From: Eubacterium sp.
Lineage (GTDB): Bacteria > Bacillota > Clostridia > Acetivibrionales > DSM-1351
Reading direction: 5' to 3'
Assembly: GCA_029266335.1 (NCBI GenBank)
Contig: JAQSXC010000002.1
Location: forward strand, 1 to 64,000
Length of the DNA stretch: 64,000 nucleotides
This document shows, piece by piece, positions 27,177-48,784 of the stretch. The notes under the pieces are model-generated. The model did no database searches. It had not been told where the DNA came from and saw nothing but the letters and a program-made list of their open reading frames with translations. Made by a program: the position numbers and the translations under genes. The first letter of the stretch is position 1; the number at the start of each line of letters is the position of its first letter.

Positions 27177-27214
27177 TGTTTAAAACATTATAATTGAAAA
27201 AATTATAATAAACA

Positions 27215-27385
27215 GATAGCGCTCCACCACATCATTATGATGACAGTCTCAAAACTCTTAACCTTGAAACCAGGAATTACATGTAAACTTGGGATGTAAT
27301 AACCTTCGGCGTTTTTTCCTTTCCATGCAAATCATAAGACCCCAAAATCTTCATTGCATTTACTGATAAAAAACGCACCTCTATC
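27215..27385 (-). ncRNA. Lysine riboswitch (L-box)
   Basis: Minus strand GATAGAGGTGCG...AAAACGCCGAAGG...GGTTAAGAG...GAGACTGTCATC...GATGTGGTGGAGCGCTATC: conserved L-box core and pairing P1 ends. Confidence 0.9.
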
Positions 27386-27602
27386 TAAATCTATTCATTT
27401 TTATAATAATATCATTGGTAAATATGCTGTGTCAAATATTTTATAGTCTTGAGAGCATAAAGTACAAATTTTGAAAACTTATAAATATTATATGCCGGAT
27501 ATTTCAATTCTGTTACAATTTGATAGCCAGGCAGGATGTATAATATATTATGTCGAAAAGATGTTTAAGATAAATGAAGAGAAGATAAGGAGTCAGTTAC
27601 TA

Positions 27603-30491: not shown

Positions 30492-31847
30492 TTACTTGTG
30501 AAAAAACTCATTATAGAGAGAAATAACTGCCTTATTTGATTCTTCTTCCTTTACTGCAAACATCATGGTTATTTCGGAAGAACCCTGATTTATCATTTCA
30601 AGGCTGATAGAAGCCTTGGCTAATGCCGAGGTTGCTCTGGCTGCCGTGCCTACGGTGTTCTTCATACCTTCACCGACAATAATTACAATAGCAAGATTAT
30701 GTTCTATGGATACATCATCGCAATTGAGCTCATTCTTAATACGGTCAAGAATCTTTTGTTCAACTGCTGCAGTTTTAAATTGGCTCTGCTTCAAAATTAC
30801 AGATATATTGTCAATTCCTGAAGGAGTATGTTCATAGGAAATACCTTCTTCCTCAAGAATTTGCAGGAGCTTTCTTCCGAAGCCGACTTCTCTGTTCATC
30901 ATAAATTTGCTTACATATATGCAACAAAAGCCTGAATCGCTTGCTATACCAACAACATGATTTGGTGTGAAATCTCTTTTAAGAACAATTTTTGTTCCTG
31001 GGACTGTCGGGTTATTTGTATTTTTGATACAGACTGGTACACCTGCCATAAATACAGGAACCAGAGTGTCTTCATGTAACACTGAGAAGCCGGCATAGGA
31101 CAGTTCCCTCATCTCTCTGTAAGTAAGCTCTGAAATTGCAACCGGGTTATGAACCAGACCTGGGTGAGCTGCATAAACAGCATCTACATCGGTGAAGTTC
31201 TCGTACAAGTCTACATTCAAAGCGGCGGCAAGTATTGAACCTGATATGTCTGAACCTCCACGGGGGAAGGTCGCTACCTTGTCTTCCAATGTATAGCCAA
31301 AGAAGCCGGGGAAAATAATTATTCCATCATAATCATTAAGCATTTTGAGATTTTCATAGGATTCAGGCAGAACCTGGGCATTTCCGAACTCACTGCTCAT
31401 TAGGAGACCGGCCTGTTTGGGGCTGATGTAGTGTGCCTTATGACCGATACTGTTCAGGTAAGCAGCTACAAGCTTTGCACTGTTGTCTTCTCCCGCCGCT
31501 TTCATGGCATCCATAAACATGCCTTCATGACTGGTATCAAGTTTCAGCCTTTCTTCAAGGTCTTTTCTGATTTCTGTTACTATACTGCCATCAAGCTTCA
31601 GGTCATCTGCAATATCTTTAAATCTTTTAACTACAGCTTCAAGCTCATCAGATGCACTACCCGTTTCCAACTGTTTTTTTGCACAGGCTATAAGTAAATC
31701 CGTAACTTTTGTATCCTGTTTATCTCTTTTACCAGGTGCAGATACCACTATAACTCTTCTGTCACTATCTGATAGAATAATATCGCAAACCTTTTTTATT
31801 TGTTCGGCATTAGCCAATGAGGTTCCTCCAAATTTTGCTACCTTCAT
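30492..31847 (-). CDS. lysC: Aspartate kinase
   Basis: 'MKVAKFGGTSLANAEQIKKV', C-terminal ACT repeats. Confidence 0.93.
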   Translation of the reverse strand: MKVAKFGGTSLANAEQIKKVCDIILSDSDRRVIVVSAPGKRDKQDTKVTDLLIACAKKQLETGSASDELEAVVKRFKDIADDLKLDGSIVTEIRKDLEERLKLDTSHEGMFMDAMKAAGEDNSAKLVAAYLNSIGHKAHYISPKQAGLLMSSEFGNAQVLPESYENLKMLNDYDGIIIFPGFFGYTLEDKVATFPRGGSDISGSILAAALNVDLYENFTDVDAVYAAHPGLVHNPVAISELTYREMRELSYAGFSVLHEDTLVPVFMAGVPVCIKNTNNPTVPGTKIVLKRDFTPNHVVGIASDSGFCCIYVSKFMMNREVGFGRKLLQILEEEGISYEHTPSGIDNISVILKQSQFKTAAVEQKILDRIKNELNCDDVSIEHNLAIVIIVGEGMKNTVGTAARATSALAKASISLEMINQGSSEITMMFAVKEEESNKAVISLYNEFFHK

Positions 31848-32257
31848 GTGTTGCATCCTCCATCCATCAATACTTATAGTTTTATACCTGAAAGGAGCTA
31901 TCAAAAATAGCAGTGCAGAATATTATAATAAGCAGCCGGCCAAAGGCCGGCTTTCTATAATTTTTAACTCTTCACTTTTCACTAAATTGAGATATCCCCC
32001 AGTATTTTCTTACAGGAATAATATCTCATAAATTATACAAAAAAACAGTATATATGGCAATAAGTATTTGTAATATAAACAATTATAATGTATGATATTT
32101 ATTGTTTATTTGCTACTTGTTTTATCGAAGTCAAATACTGTATAATTTTTGAGATAAATTCAAGTATTGGTTGAGTAGCATTTACTTTGGCAATATTACT
32201 TATAATTATTACATATAATAAAAGAATAAATTTGCAAAACACTTGGAGGAATTGTTG

Positions 32258-34522: not shown

Positions 34523-34801
34523 ATGGAACAAATACTAGTTGGATTTGTCCTGCCTATGGCATTAGTTTTCGGGCTTATGTACGTAATGCTTATTCTTCCA
34601 CAAAAGAAGAAAGAAAAGAAAACTAAAGAATTGCTTAATTCTTTACAGGTTGGATGGGCTGTTACAACAATAGGAGGTATCGCAGGAAAGATCGTTAATA
34701 TTAAAGACGATGAGGTCACTATTGAATCCGGTGTCGAAAAAACAAAAATCCTTGTCAAGCGTTGGGCTGTCAAAGATGTTGTTAAGCCTGTTGAGGGATA
34801 A
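34523..34801 (+). CDS. yajC: Preprotein translocase subunit YajC
   Basis: 'LILPQKKKEKKTKELLNSLQVGWAVTTIGGIAGKIVNIKDDEVTIE'. Confidence 0.92.
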   Translation: MEQILVGFVLPMALVFGLMYVMLILPQKKKEKKTKELLNSLQVGWAVTTIGGIAGKIVNIKDDEVTIESGVEKTKILVKRWAVKDVVKPVEG

Positions 34802-34902: not shown

Positions 34903-35307
34903 ATGGCCGGACAGACATCAGGATTAAAAAAGCAGCTTGATGAACATGTAAATTTTATCAGGGTTTTGAAGGGATTGATCATATCTTTTCTAATAACTCT
35001 GCCATGTTTTCTTGGCTTTGCTTTATTTTTGACTTATACGGATTTTCCTGAAAAGCATACATTTATTGCTGTTCTTATTACTACTGTAATAAGTGTTCTG
35101 ACAGCATCCGCATACTCTACTAAAAATGTGAGAAGTAAAGGGTGGATGAATGGCTGTGCAGTTGGCGTATTATATGTAGCAATACTTTATCTGGCAAGCA
35201 GTATAATTTTCATGAATTTTGCAGTAAATGTTCAGGTTCTTCTGACAGTTGTAATCGGCGCCATTGTGGGCTGCCTGGGAGGAATATTCGGAATTAATCT
35301 CCGTTAA
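34903..35307 (+). CDS. TIGR04086-like membrane protein
   Basis: Four TM segments; position between yajC and SCIFF locus matches this family's usual neighbourhood. Confidence 0.7.
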   Translation: MAGQTSGLKKQLDEHVNFIRVLKGLIISFLITLPCFLGFALFLTYTDFPEKHTFIAVLITTVISVLTASAYSTKNVRSKGWMNGCAVGVLYVAILYLASSIIFMNFAVNVQVLLTVVIGAIVGCLGGIFGINLR

Positions 35308-35423
35308 CCCTGTTGTTTACGGCAACGGGATTAGACGGTACTATAGCTATACAAATTATACCTTTTCAAACCATTTGAAATGTGCTATAATCTGCTAAGA
35401 AAATTAATAGGAGGGACTAAGGG

Positions 35424-35564
35424 ATGAAGCATATAAAGACAATTAACAGCGCTACACTTAAAGAAAGCCTTGCTCATGGTGGTTGCGGAGAATGCCAGAC
35501 TTCATGTCAGTCAGCTTGTAAAACATCATGTACTGTTGCAAACCAAAGCTGCGAAAAGAAGTAA
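35424..35564 (+). CDS. scfA: SCIFF-family ranthipeptide precursor (not in ORF track)
   Basis: MKHIKTINSATLKESLAHGGCGECQTSCQSACKTSCTVANQSCEKK*; six Cys in the SCIFF pattern, RBS aggaggg. Confidence 0.95.
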   Translation: MKHIKTINSATLKESLAHGGCGECQTSCQSACKTSCTVANQSCEKK

Positions 35565-35600
35565 TAAACCATAAGAATATATTGGTATAAGATATTGACG

Positions 35601-35637
35601 GTGAAAGGTGTTTATAAAGAACACTTTTCACTTTTTT
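35601..35637 (+). terminator. Terminator-like hairpin between scfA and its maturase
   Basis: GTGAAAGGTGTTtataaagAACACTTTTCACTTTTTT. Confidence 0.75.
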
Positions 35638-35777
35638 ATGGGTCTTTAGGAGGACACAGCGTGAATAAAAAGTATTGATAATCAACGCTAATTTGACACC
35701 TCAAAATGCAAACGTTTTATCACTGATTTTTAAGCGGGCATGTGTGTTTACACTTCAAGCACGCGGATGGAGAGACA

Positions 35778-37121
35778 ATGATTCACAAGTACAAGATGTA
35801 TGATACAAACATAGTCATGGATATTAACAGCGGAGCAGTGCATGTTTTTGATGAAGCTGCCTATGATGTTGTTGATATGTATAAGACCAAGTCCAGGGAA
35901 CAGATAGCTGATGCTTTGATATCAAAGTATAATGCGCAGGATATTTCTGATGCTTATAATGAAATTTCAAATCTTGAGACTCAGGGACTGCTTTTTAGTG
36001 AGGATTCCTATTCGGAGGCAATTGCAAAGTGGGAGAGAAAGCCCGTTGTAAAGGCTTTGTGTTTACATATCTGTCACGACTGTAATCTGCGCTGCAAGTA
36101 TTGTTTTGCTTCTACAGGCAGCTTTGGCGGACACAGAACCATGATGGATGCTGAAACAGGAAAAAGGGCAATAGATTTTCTTATTGAAAAGTCTGCCGGG
36201 AGGCGCAATCTGGAAGTGGATTTCTTCGGTGGCGAACCACTTATGAATTTTGACGTGGTTAAGCAGATAGTTGAGTACGCGCGAATCAGGGAAAAGGAAA
36301 CTGGGAAGAATTTCAGATTTACTATTACCACCAATGCTTTATTATTGAATGATGACAATAAAGACTTTATCAATAAAAACATGCATAATGTGGTTCTGAG
36401 TATTGATGGACGGCGTGAAACAAATGACAGAATGAGACCAAGAGTCGACGGCTCGGGTACCTATGGCAGCATATTGCCAAAGATAAAAGATATGGCTGAC
36501 TCAAGAAATCAGGATAATTATTATGTAAGAGGCACATTTACCAGGGAAAATCTTGATTTTGCAGAGGATGTTCTGCATCTGGCGGATGAGGGCTTTAAAC
36601 AGGTGTCTGTTGAACCTGTTGTGGCAGCAAAGGATTCCGGCTATGATATCCGTGAACAGGATCTGGACAAGCTTTTTTCAGAATATGAGAGACTTGCTGG
36701 TGAATATGTAAAGAGAGGGAAGGAAAATAAAGGTTTTAACTTCTTTCACTTTATGATAGATTTACAACAGGGCCCTTGTGTAATTAAAAGACTTGGAGGC
36801 TGTGGTTCCGGCCATGAATATCTTGCAGTGACTCCGGAGGGAGATCTTTATCCCTGCCATCAATTTGTCGGTGACAAAAAATTTAAGATGGGAAATATCC
36901 ATGAAGGTGTATTTAATTCTGATTCCCAGAAGGATTTCCAGAAATCAAATGTTTATACCAAGAAGGATTGTGCCGAATGCTGGGCAAAATTCTACTGCAG
37001 TGGAGGTTGTGCTGCCAATGCATATCAGTTTAACAATGATATAAATGTTCCATATAAAATAGGTTGTGAGCTTGAAAAGAAAAGGGTTGAATGTGCAATC
37101 TGGATAAAAACTCAAGAATAG
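35778..37121 (+). CDS. scfB: SCIFF radical SAM maturase
   Basis: Radical SAM CHDCNLRCKYCFAS, SPASM Cys region 'CGSGHEYLAVTPEGDLYPCHQF...CAECWAKFYCSGGC'; directly downstream of scfA. Confidence 0.95.
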   Translation: MIHKYKMYDTNIVMDINSGAVHVFDEAAYDVVDMYKTKSREQIADALISKYNAQDISDAYNEISNLETQGLLFSEDSYSEAIAKWERKPVVKALCLHICHDCNLRCKYCFASTGSFGGHRTMMDAETGKRAIDFLIEKSAGRRNLEVDFFGGEPLMNFDVVKQIVEYARIREKETGKNFRFTITTNALLLNDDNKDFINKNMHNVVLSIDGRRETNDRMRPRVDGSGTYGSILPKIKDMADSRNQDNYYVRGTFTRENLDFAEDVLHLADEGFKQVSVEPVVAAKDSGYDIREQDLDKLFSEYERLAGEYVKRGKENKGFNFFHFMIDLQQGPCVIKRLGGCGSGHEYLAVTPEGDLYPCHQFVGDKKFKMGNIHEGVFNSDSQKDFQKSNVYTKKDCAECWAKFYCSGGCAANAYQFNNDINVPYKIGCELEKKRVECAIWIKTQE

Positions 37122-37135
37122 AAGAGGTAAACATT

Positions 37136-37636
37136 GTGATAAGAGATTTTAACAATATTACACCGCAAATTCACGAAACTGCTTTCATTGCACCAAACAG
37201 CACTGTAATAGGTGATGTGATTCTTGGAGAAAATACTACTATTTGGTACAATGCAGTTTTAAGAGGAGATATTGACAGCATAGTTGTTGGAGATAATACA
37301 AATATTCAGGAAGGCTGCATTCTGCACTGTAAAAAAGGTGCGGATGTAAAGATTGGTTCTAATGTAACGGTGGGGCATGGAGCTATTTTGCACAGTTGTC
37401 ACATTGGAAATAATACACTTATTGGAATGGGTGCCATTGTACTGGATGACTCAGTCATAGGTAATAACTGTCTGGTTGCTGCCGGAAGTGTTGTTACTCC
37501 AAGAACCAAAATACCCGATGGAAGCTTGATCGCCGGTAGCCCTGCAGTAGTTAAAAGAGTTTTGAACGAGCAGGAGATAGAAGATATTAAACGAAATGCG
37601 AATGAATATATCAATCTTCTAAAATACTATAAATAG
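37136..37636 (+). CDS. Gamma-carbonic-anhydrase-family hexapeptide-repeat protein
   Basis: GTG start; left-handed beta-helix repeats, 'VGHGAILHSCHIGNNTLIGMGA'. Confidence 0.93.
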   Translation: MIRDFNNITPQIHETAFIAPNSTVIGDVILGENTTIWYNAVLRGDIDSIVVGDNTNIQEGCILHCKKGADVKIGSNVTVGHGAILHSCHIGNNTLIGMGAIVLDDSVIGNNCLVAAGSVVTPRTKIPDGSLIAGSPAVVKRVLNEQEIEDIKRNANEYINLLKYYK

Positions 37637-37896: not shown

Positions 37897-39252
37897 ATGA
37901 GAGGAAGCAACGCGGTTAAATTTTTCTCTATATTAATTATCACAGGAATTTTTACCTGGATAACAGCTTTTGGCTCTATCGCCGGATTCGATATTCCAGG
38001 TGCGAAAGATATCAGACCGGGTATTGATATTCAGGGTGGAGTAGACGCAAAGCTATATGCAATAACTGATAATAAAAAACTGCCTTCTGAAAAGGATTTG
38101 GATGCAGCCAGGTACACAATTGAAAAGCGATTGGATGCAAAAAATATTTTTGATAGAGTCGTAACCGTTGATTACCAAAAGGGGTATGTTTTAGTTCAGA
38201 TTCCTCATAAAAAAGGTGAGGCTTTTGATCCTCAGAAGTCCATTGAAGAAATCGGCAAGACTGCACTTTTAACCTTCCAGGAAGTTGATGAATCCAAGAA
38301 GAATGCAGATGGAACATATATTCCTGCTGATACAAGCAAGGAAGATGAAAAGAAGAGAATCATACTTCAGGGTACTGATATTGAAGATGCAACTGCGGAG
38401 CCATCTCAGGAAGGTGCCGGATTCCAGGTATCCCTCAAGATGTCAGAGGCAGGGACAAAAAAGTTTGCTGAAGCTACTGCAAGACTAGTTGGAAAGCCAA
38501 TAGCAATATTTATGGATAATAAGCAAATCAGCGCTCCTGTAGTTGATGAGCCTATTCCTAACGGTACAGCCAGAATACGTCTTAATGGTGACGCTAACTC
38601 ACAGAAAGATGAAGCTAAAGAGCTGGCAGGACTTATTAAATCCGGTGCACTTCCATTCAAACTGGAAGCAAAGCAGGTTAATAATATCAGTCCGACGCTT
38701 GGATCAAATGCGCTTGCAGTAAGTATAGATGCATTTGTTGTAGCTTTTATCCTGATTTGTATATTTATGATCGCTTATTATAGATTGCCGGGTTTCATTG
38801 CCTGTATAGCACTTTTCCTGCATACAGTCATGGAATTATTAGCTCTTTCATGGTTGAACATCACAGTAACCTTGCCCGGTATCGCAGGTTTGATTCTTAC
38901 AATCGGTATGGCTGTTGACGCCAATGTTATCATCTTTGAAAGAATCAAGGAAGAAATCAAGGCTGGAAAGACCTTGAGAGCGGCTATAGACGTTGGATTC
39001 AAGAGGGCATTTGCTGCGGTACTTGACGGTAACGTTACAACCCTTATATCTGCCGTTGTGTTATTAAAGTTTGGTACAGGTCCTATACAGAGCTTTGCGT
39101 ACACCTTGGGAATCGGAGTTATTCTGAGCTTCGTTACTGCTGTAACAGCAACCAGATTGATGCTGAAAGCAGTATCAGATCTGGATATAGCCAAGCATCC
39201 TGTTTTATACGGTGTAAGTGCGAGACTGAAAGGAGGCAAAGCAAATGGTTAA
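37897..39252 (+). CDS. secD: Protein translocase subunit SecD
   Basis: 'PGIDIQGGVDAKLYA', 'IGMAVDANVIIFERIKEE'. Confidence 0.97.
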   Translation: MRGSNAVKFFSILIITGIFTWITAFGSIAGFDIPGAKDIRPGIDIQGGVDAKLYAITDNKKLPSEKDLDAARYTIEKRLDAKNIFDRVVTVDYQKGYVLVQIPHKKGEAFDPQKSIEEIGKTALLTFQEVDESKKNADGTYIPADTSKEDEKKRIILQGTDIEDATAEPSQEGAGFQVSLKMSEAGTKKFAEATARLVGKPIAIFMDNKQISAPVVDEPIPNGTARIRLNGDANSQKDEAKELAGLIKSGALPFKLEAKQVNNISPTLGSNALAVSIDAFVVAFILICIFMIAYYRLPGFIACIALFLHTVMELLALSWLNITVTLPGIAGLILTIGMAVDANVIIFERIKEEIKAGKTLRAAIDVGFKRAFAAVLDGNVTTLISAVVLLKFGTGPIQSFAYTLGIGVILSFVTAVTATRLMLKAVSDLDIAKHPVLYGVSARLKGGKANG

Positions 39253-40213
39253 TTTATATTCAAAAAGATACTACTTTTTTATACTGTCAGCTATAATTAT
39301 TCTTGCAGGTGTTGTTTCATATTTCGCATGGGGCTTTAAACTGGACATACAGTTTGAAGGCGGTACGGTTATTGAATTAAGAGCCAACAAGGATATGTTC
39401 ACAGAAAGCAATACTCAGGAGCTGCAGTCAAATATAGCAGACTTTGTAACTAAAACAGTTAATAAGTCTGCCTATGTTCAGAAGTCATCTGCATTTGACA
39501 TCAGTGGTGCAAATGAAAGCTATGATGTTATAAAGATAAGCATTGGTAGTGAGAATACACTGACAAATGATGAAATTACAAAGGTCGAAGAGGCTGTAAT
39601 TAAAGAGTTTAAGCTTACAGCGGAAGATCCTGTAATAAATGAAGAAAGTGTAGAGCCATTTATAGGTAAAGAAATCATGCAGAATGGTTTTAAGGCTGTT
39701 GCCATTGCCTTTATCTTAATTATCTTGTATGTATGGGTAAGATTTAAAACAATGTCAGGTTTGTCAGCCGGTGTATTTGCAGTAGTCGGTGTACTTCATG
39801 ATGCTATTGTAATGATAGCAGTTTATCTGATATTCCAGATACCGCTTAACGAGTCCTTTATTGCGGCTATACTGACTGTTGTCGGTTATTCAATGAATGA
39901 TACAATCATTATTTATGACCGTATCAGAGAAAACAGCAGATTATTGAGAAAGATGCCATTGCCTGAATTGGTAAACCAGAGTATATTACAGACTTTAAAC
40001 AGATCTATCAACACTGTTGTAACAGCTTTGATAGCAATCACTACTGTTTATATTTTCGCCAAAGTAAACGGTATAATATCAATAGAAGAATTCAGCTTCC
40101 CACTCATAATCGGTTTGGCAGCAGGATGTTATTCATCAATCTTTATTACAAGCCCATTATATGTAATGTGGAAAGAAAGCCAAAAAAAATCAAAAGTAGC
40201 TGCAAAAGCTTAA
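39245..40213 (+). CDS. secF: Protein translocase subunit SecF
   Basis: 'FKLDIQFEGGTVIELRA', 'VVGYSMNDTIIIYDRIREN'; overlaps secD by 8 nt. Confidence 0.97.
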   Translation: MVNLYSKRYYFFILSAIIILAGVVSYFAWGFKLDIQFEGGTVIELRANKDMFTESNTQELQSNIADFVTKTVNKSAYVQKSSAFDISGANESYDVIKISIGSENTLTNDEITKVEEAVIKEFKLTAEDPVINEESVEPFIGKEIMQNGFKAVAIAFILIILYVWVRFKTMSGLSAGVFAVVGVLHDAIVMIAVYLIFQIPLNESFIAAILTVVGYSMNDTIIIYDRIRENSRLLRKMPLPELVNQSILQTLNRSINTVVTALIAITTVYIFAKVNGIISIEEFSFPLIIGLAAGCYSSIFITSPLYVMWKESQKKSKVAAKA

Positions 40214-40959: not shown

Positions 40960-41241
40960 ATGGAACTGGTTTGCTCAAAGAAACTTGAAATTAATGAGTC
41001 AGTGGAATACCAATGCAAAGAACTTAATTTAGAGTATTATTTGTTGTCTTGTGAAACTGATAATTCCTGTACATATGGGATACAGATCAATATGACTAAA
41101 GATAGCGGTGAATCAGAAACAGCTGTAATAAACGATGTTTTACCTTCAAAAGCAAGTATGATGGAACTTATAAATCTTATGTACAAGAATTCGGTAACTC
41201 CTGTAAGTGCCCATGATGTGATATATGACTGTATTTCCTGA
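40960..41241 (+). CDS. DUF6514-like small protein
   Basis: Length and '...SGESETAVINDVLPSKASMMELINLMYKNSVTPVSAHDVIYD' ending; RBS gaggagg. Confidence 0.7.
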   Translation: MELVCSKKLEINESVEYQCKELNLEYYLLSCETDNSCTYGIQINMTKDSGESETAVINDVLPSKASMMELINLMYKNSVTPVSAHDVIYDCIS

Positions 41242-48434: not shown

Positions 48435-48778
48435 AATGAGTAAGCCAGATGATCGCAGGTACAGCCTGAAAAGGCGTAAATGAGGAAAGTCCGGGCTCCA
48501 GAGGGCAATGGTGCCGGGTAACTCCCGGTGAAGGTGACTTTAAGGAAAGTGCAACAGAGATATACCGCCTGATCAGTCAGGTAAGGGTGGAAAGGTGAGG
48601 TAAGAGCTCACCAGCGGCATGGCGACTTGCCGGCTATGTAAACCCCACCTGGAGCAACGCCGTGGAGGGACGCAATGACTGCCCGTCAGTCCCGGGGAGG
48701 TGGCTTGAGCATTGCAGAAATGCAGTGCCTAGATAGATGATCATCAAATACAGAACCCGGCTTATAGACTTACTCATT
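48435..48778 (+). ncRNA. rnpB: RNase P RNA
   Basis: 'GAGGAAAGTCCGGGCTCC' core, 'ACAGAGATATACCGCC', closing AATGAGTAAG/CTTACTCATT helix. Confidence 0.96.
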
Positions 48779-48784
48779 TTAAAC

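Follow-up and report, generated by a model that had tools for sequence, protein, structure and literature searches.

The window analysed here, a stretch of 64,000 nucleotides, contains a precursor gene (scfA) and a radical SAM/SPASM maturase gene (scfB) which with a probability of about 0.95 form the only SCIFF system of a bacterium resembling Ruminiclostridium, with its own scfA promoter, partial termination, and thioether chemistry like that of CteB and Tte1186. The assignment is based on the matches of both partners to curated models, the full-length match to CteB together with the CteA leader match, and cysteines that are all in place. It is further based on the close spacing of the two genes in 74 of 76 named loci (scfA at most 700 bp ahead of scfB), the presence of one copy in the genome, the detection of the SCIFF peptide in 209 of 243 sampled class genomes, and a conserved promoter and terminator. 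An earlier note on this DNA had proposed a SCIFF precursor and radical SAM maturase pair, an interpretation that is supported by both partners passing curated equivalog cut-offs.

Precursor and maturase genes

The scfA gene (35424 to 35564, forward strand) encodes a SCIFF ranthipeptide precursor of 46 aa. Its leader spans approximately residues 1–20 and ends in GG, and is followed by a Cys-rich core (residues 21–46). The earlier note had reported a six-Cys peptide of this length, and the ORF was found at that place with exactly the sequence given. In profile searches, the peptide scored 85.8 bits (E 1.3e-24) against TIGR03973 and 86.9 bits against PF13165, with curated cut-offs of 50 and 27 bits, respectively, which bears out its identification as a SCIFF precursor. 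The cysteines are found at the family positions C21, C24, C28, C32, C36, and C43, the first of which is immediately preceded by the GG of the leader. Six Cys residues are found in 98 of 106 precursors, including this one, and seven in 8 of 106. Moreover, the peptide contains Cys32, Thr34, and Thr37, at which cross-links have been reported in CteA and Tte1186a. A whole-genome search revealed a single SCIFF peptide in the window's genome and no second copy. Small SCIFF ORFs are prone to omission from annotation (PMC5300114).

The scfB gene (35778 to 37121, forward strand) encodes a radical SAM/SPASM SCIFF maturase of 447 aa. It lies on the same strand as scfA, with 213 bp between the scfA stop codon and the scfB ATG. 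The radical SAM/SPASM protein noted earlier downstream of the peptide was thus recovered as an ORF ending at 37121, and its profile score of 714 bits against TIGR03974 (SCIFF maturase) passes the curated cut-off of 425 bits by nearly 290 bits. The radical SAM CxxxCxxC motif was read in the sequence as C102-C106-C109, and the SPASM cysteines are C342-X17-C360, C398-X2-C-X5-C-X3-C411, C430, and C439. Both Pfam domains scored above their cut-offs (Radical_SAM, 51.7 bits; SPASM, 31.2 bits). The N-terminus (RRE region) gave a weak PqqD-like match to PF05402, at 20.5 bits against a cut-off of 23.4. Translation most likely starts at ATG 35778 (MIHKYKM...) rather than at GTG 35742, because the alignments with homologues begin there and that with CteB spans residues 1–447. 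The GTG start, taken from the ORF track, adds 12 unaligned residues and is a mechanical ORF start.

The HMM search had been named beforehand as the check, with the lack of a SCIFF-model match as the outcome that would count against the pair; peptide and enzyme both scored above equivalog cut-offs. Since their scores are far above the TIGR03973, PF13165, and TIGR03974 cut-offs, scfA and the maturase ORF are confirmed at the sequence level as real genes rather than chance ORFs. It was also considered whether a look-alike radical SAM/SPASM system (a PapB-type ranthipeptide, nif11, CcpM, or an orphan 'not_ScfB' enzyme) could be present instead of true SCIFF. scfB does match such models, namely the exception model NF040492 'not_ScfB' (614.6 bits), PapB (281.9 bits), and the nif11 maturase (266.6 bits); however, each score lies under the model's own cut-off (855, 340, and 518.7, respectively). 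Together with the wide margin on TIGR03974 and a precursor that passes TIGR03973, this makes a look-alike extremely improbable, and these other systems were ruled out.

Only one maturase above the TIGR03974 cut-off is encoded in the window's genome, where the remaining enzyme matches, C265 and C38, are weak relatives of the SPASM/radical SAM type. Elsewhere, maturases were seen at L068 6001-7350 (686 bits on TIGR03974), with no scfA detected in approximately 6 kb upstream, and at L063 760-2103 (774 bits), with no scfA detected in the approximately 760 bases upstream. These are possibly orphan maturases or enzymes with distant precursors.

Expression signals and gene neighbourhood

A candidate promoter for scfA is found at 35363 to 35391 (forward strand), where TTTTCA is separated by 17 nt from TATAAT with a TG (extended -10). 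This is a consensus match only, with 10 of 12 positions matched. TTTTCA and TGCTATAAT are identical in 9 of 9 aligned genus members and the DNA just 5' of them diverges; the site is probably the scfA promoter. The ribosome-binding site read in the sequence (TAGGAGGGA, 35409 to 35417, forward strand) lies approximately 6 bases 5' of the ATG and is a purine-rich GGAGG-like element conserved in the genus alignment.

The scfA-scfB spacer contains a predicted intrinsic terminator or attenuator (35600 to 35632, forward strand), in which a 14-bp stem is followed by TTTTTT. The hairpin folds at -17.6 kcal/mol (z -4.6 vs shuffles), and 6 of 6 aligned genus members retain both stem and T-run in an otherwise divergent spacer. 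The spacer is longer in the window than in Ruminiclostridium hungatei, with the extra DNA located downstream of the terminator. A pattern scan found terminator-like sites in at least 22 of 105 scfA-scfB spacers, with 2.2 expected from shuffles; the scan missed genus relatives other than the window, and the count of 22 is therefore a lower bound. As read from these signals, scfA would be transcribed from its own promoter, and the intrinsic terminator after it would pass just part of the transcripts on to scfB. We infer that the precursor may be made in excess over the maturase through partial termination.

The scfAB pair is situated within a queA-tgt-yajC-TIGR04086-secDF arrangement common to many relatives. 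Directly upstream of scfA is a small membrane protein gene, TIGR04086/DUF3792 (34903 to 35307, forward strand; 99.4 bits, cut-off 30), preceded by yajC, which encodes a translocase subunit (34523 to 34801, forward strand; TIGR00739, 66.6 bits, cut-off 44.2). Downstream on the same strand is secD-secF (37897 to 40213), named as such in the earlier note. That note had described the flanking genes as core ones (yajC, secDF) and had suggested comparing neighbours across genomes; yajC was identified by TIGR00739, 47 of 61 named loci have a homologous secD no more than 3 kb downstream of scfB, and the yajC/secDF setting proved common to many relatives. A gamma-carbonic-anhydrase-like gene with hexapeptide repeats directly follows scfB (approximately 37136-37636, forward strand; NF050158, 188.2 bits, below the cut-off of 250). 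It is probably unrelated to SCIFF, because only 7 of 71 named loci have it immediately after scfB.

This neighbourhood would be accounted for if the Sec accessory proteins (YajC, SecDF, and the TIGR04086 membrane protein) handled the SCIFF product. The frequency of the nearby secD agrees with this, as does TIGR04086, which immediately precedes scfA in 61 of 93 class genomes among the matches listed, counting the better-scoring part in which both genes appear. However, queA-tgt-yajC-secDF is a widespread bacterial operon in its own right, so that the peptide may simply have inserted there. TIGR04086 is likewise found without SCIFF (e.g., G043, G045, G047, and B. subtilis), about a third of genomes among the matches listed have scfA at a distance from it, and no Sec signal peptide is evident in the scfA leader as judged by reading the sequence. 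Handling by Sec proteins is thus unlikely. Because the operon is itself widespread, the neighbourhood is compatible with an ancestral insertion of scfAB into queA-tgt-yajC-secDF, and is no proof that Sec handles the peptide.

Other features were observed in the window. Between secF and dnaG is a small conserved gene (40960-41241, forward strand; DUF6514, PF20124, 61.7 bits), found at the same place in R. hungatei (L034). A lysine riboswitch aptamer (27209-27391, reverse strand; RF00168, 117.5 bits) lies a few kb from an aspartate-kinase-like gene (30492-31904, reverse strand), and a class A RNase P RNA is encoded at 48437-48780 (forward strand; RF00010, 285.6 bits).

Distribution, processing and possible role

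The window's genome is a 5.5-Mb Ruminiclostridium-like assembly in 356 contigs. Its closest named locus is that of R. hungatei, with a maturase of 88% identity and genes arranged identically between queA and dnaG. The SCIFF core GCGECQTSCQSACKTSCTV is nearly invariant among sampled members. Across 106 precursors, a set biased toward the query's relatives because most were found via the window's own maturase, residues G20 to V38 are invariant except T26 (A in two), while leader positions 7–18 are mostly variable, with L12 constant. Such a frozen core is unlike antibiotics, and wide spread among Clostridia has been argued to speak against an antimicrobial role (PMC8326336).

The earlier note had seen no dedicated peptidase or exporter nearby, and this held for C39 peptidases across the whole assembly (92.6% complete), in which none was found. 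The same was true of two genus members with scfA, G001 and G009, both listed as 100% complete. Moreover, 63 of 84 SCIFF-positive class genomes had no C39 match. Because most SCIFF-positive genomes also lack C39, the missing C39 peptidase/exporter is a general trait of SCIFF and not peculiar to the window's locus, and a C39 peptidase/exporter is not required for SCIFF. The peptide might still be cut after Gly-Gly and secreted as a signal by an ABC exporter that contains a C39 peptidase and is encoded at another place in the genome. The position of GG right before the first core Cys, the invariance of G20, and the presence of C39 domains in 8 of 11 genus genomes are in line with this. Its absence from the window's genome, from the two complete relatives, and from most carriers makes such export rather improbable, and C39 was rejected as the missing processing step.

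With regard to function, disruption of SCIFF changed sporulation in C. beijerinckii, with lower expression of sporulation genes and higher expression of agr, and a cell-density or quorum-sensing role was reported for SCIFF of C. beijerinckii and C. ljungdahlii, according to the account of this work in a later article (Chen et al. 2020 via PMC8102284). Of the published proposals for the SCIFF product, such a cell-density or regulatory signal is the best guess. In contrast to the sporulation reading from C. beijerinckii, the class sample includes 22 SCIFF-positive genomes without a full-scoring Spo0A, among which two had borderline scores (G080, 199 bits against a cut-off of 200; G100, 178.5). 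Spo0A is present in 10 of 11 SCIFF-negative genomes, and the association between SCIFF and Spo0A was not significant, leaning the opposite way (Fisher p 0.29). Since SCIFF persists in those 22 genomes, sporulation control cannot be its only conserved role, and this candidate was rejected as the sole function. In the class-level sample, Spo0A-less families were seen to keep SCIFF. Separately, several SCIFF-negative Clostridia are very small (e.g., G043, G076, G123, and G144, at 0.8–1.1 Mb) yet keep Spo0A.

A further suggestion, advanced tentatively and with clear doubt, is that the SCIFF peptide may stay inside the cell and serve a basic function in clostridia, instead of being exported as a signal or antibiotic. 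It draws on a core that is almost frozen while the leader varies, the gene's own promoter among core translocase genes, the lack of a C39 exporter in most carriers, and persistence without Spo0A. The wider question is that of a modified peptide preserved with hardly a residue changed throughout the class, though most carriers are without an obvious processing protease or exporter. Comparative counts narrow the possible answers: C39 and Spo0A are mostly uncoupled from SCIFF, there is an own promoter and attenuator, and the core is more conserved than the leader. The interest that remains is that of the whole family, namely how the product is processed, where it is located, and what it targets.

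Comparison with known systems

PapA/PapB (freyrasin, Paenibacillus polymyxa) is likewise a ranthipeptide system with a radical SAM/SPASM enzyme. Unlike PapB, scfB is below the PapB cut-off, and unlike PapA, the scfA core is without any Asp and therefore has no Cys-X3-Asp repeats.

Among the closest known systems is CteA/CteB (thermocellin) of Acetivibrio/Clostridium thermocellum (PDB 5WGG, 5WHY), to which scfB aligns over 447 of 447 residues at 758 bits. The CteB structure was solved together with a leader peptide (5WGG), and this CteA leader (residues 1–21, chain B) is nearly the same as that of scfA (MKHIKxxNxxTLKxSLxxGGC). Cys32, Thr34, and Thr37 are common to CteA and scfA. Only ordinary sequence divergence was seen between the two pairs, with no feature found to distinguish that of the window. 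Tte1186a/Tte1186 of Caldanaerobacter subterraneus belongs to the same family, and its Cys32 and Thr37 are also present in scfA.

In vitro, Tte1186 and CteB formed one thioether, from Cys32 to Thr37, while CteA and CteB made in E. coli gave a Cys32 to Thr34 link at the gamma carbon (PMC8326336, PMC8172795). The acceptor residue, Thr34 or Thr37, is disputed between published accounts (PMC8326336). By analogy, ScfB would bind the leader via the recognition region at its N-terminus and, with the iron-sulfur clusters of its radical SAM and SPASM domains, would link Cys32 in the core to Thr34 or Thr37 by a non-alpha thioether. Thioether formation on the window's peptide is thus inferred from CteB and Tte1186 (PMC8326336). 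The SCIFF ranthipeptides of C. beijerinckii and C. ljungdahlii also have precursors and maturases of these families. The locus is an ordinary representative of a family that has been well described and whose pair is carried by most clostridia, and adds one more example of a near-universal clostridial peptide system.
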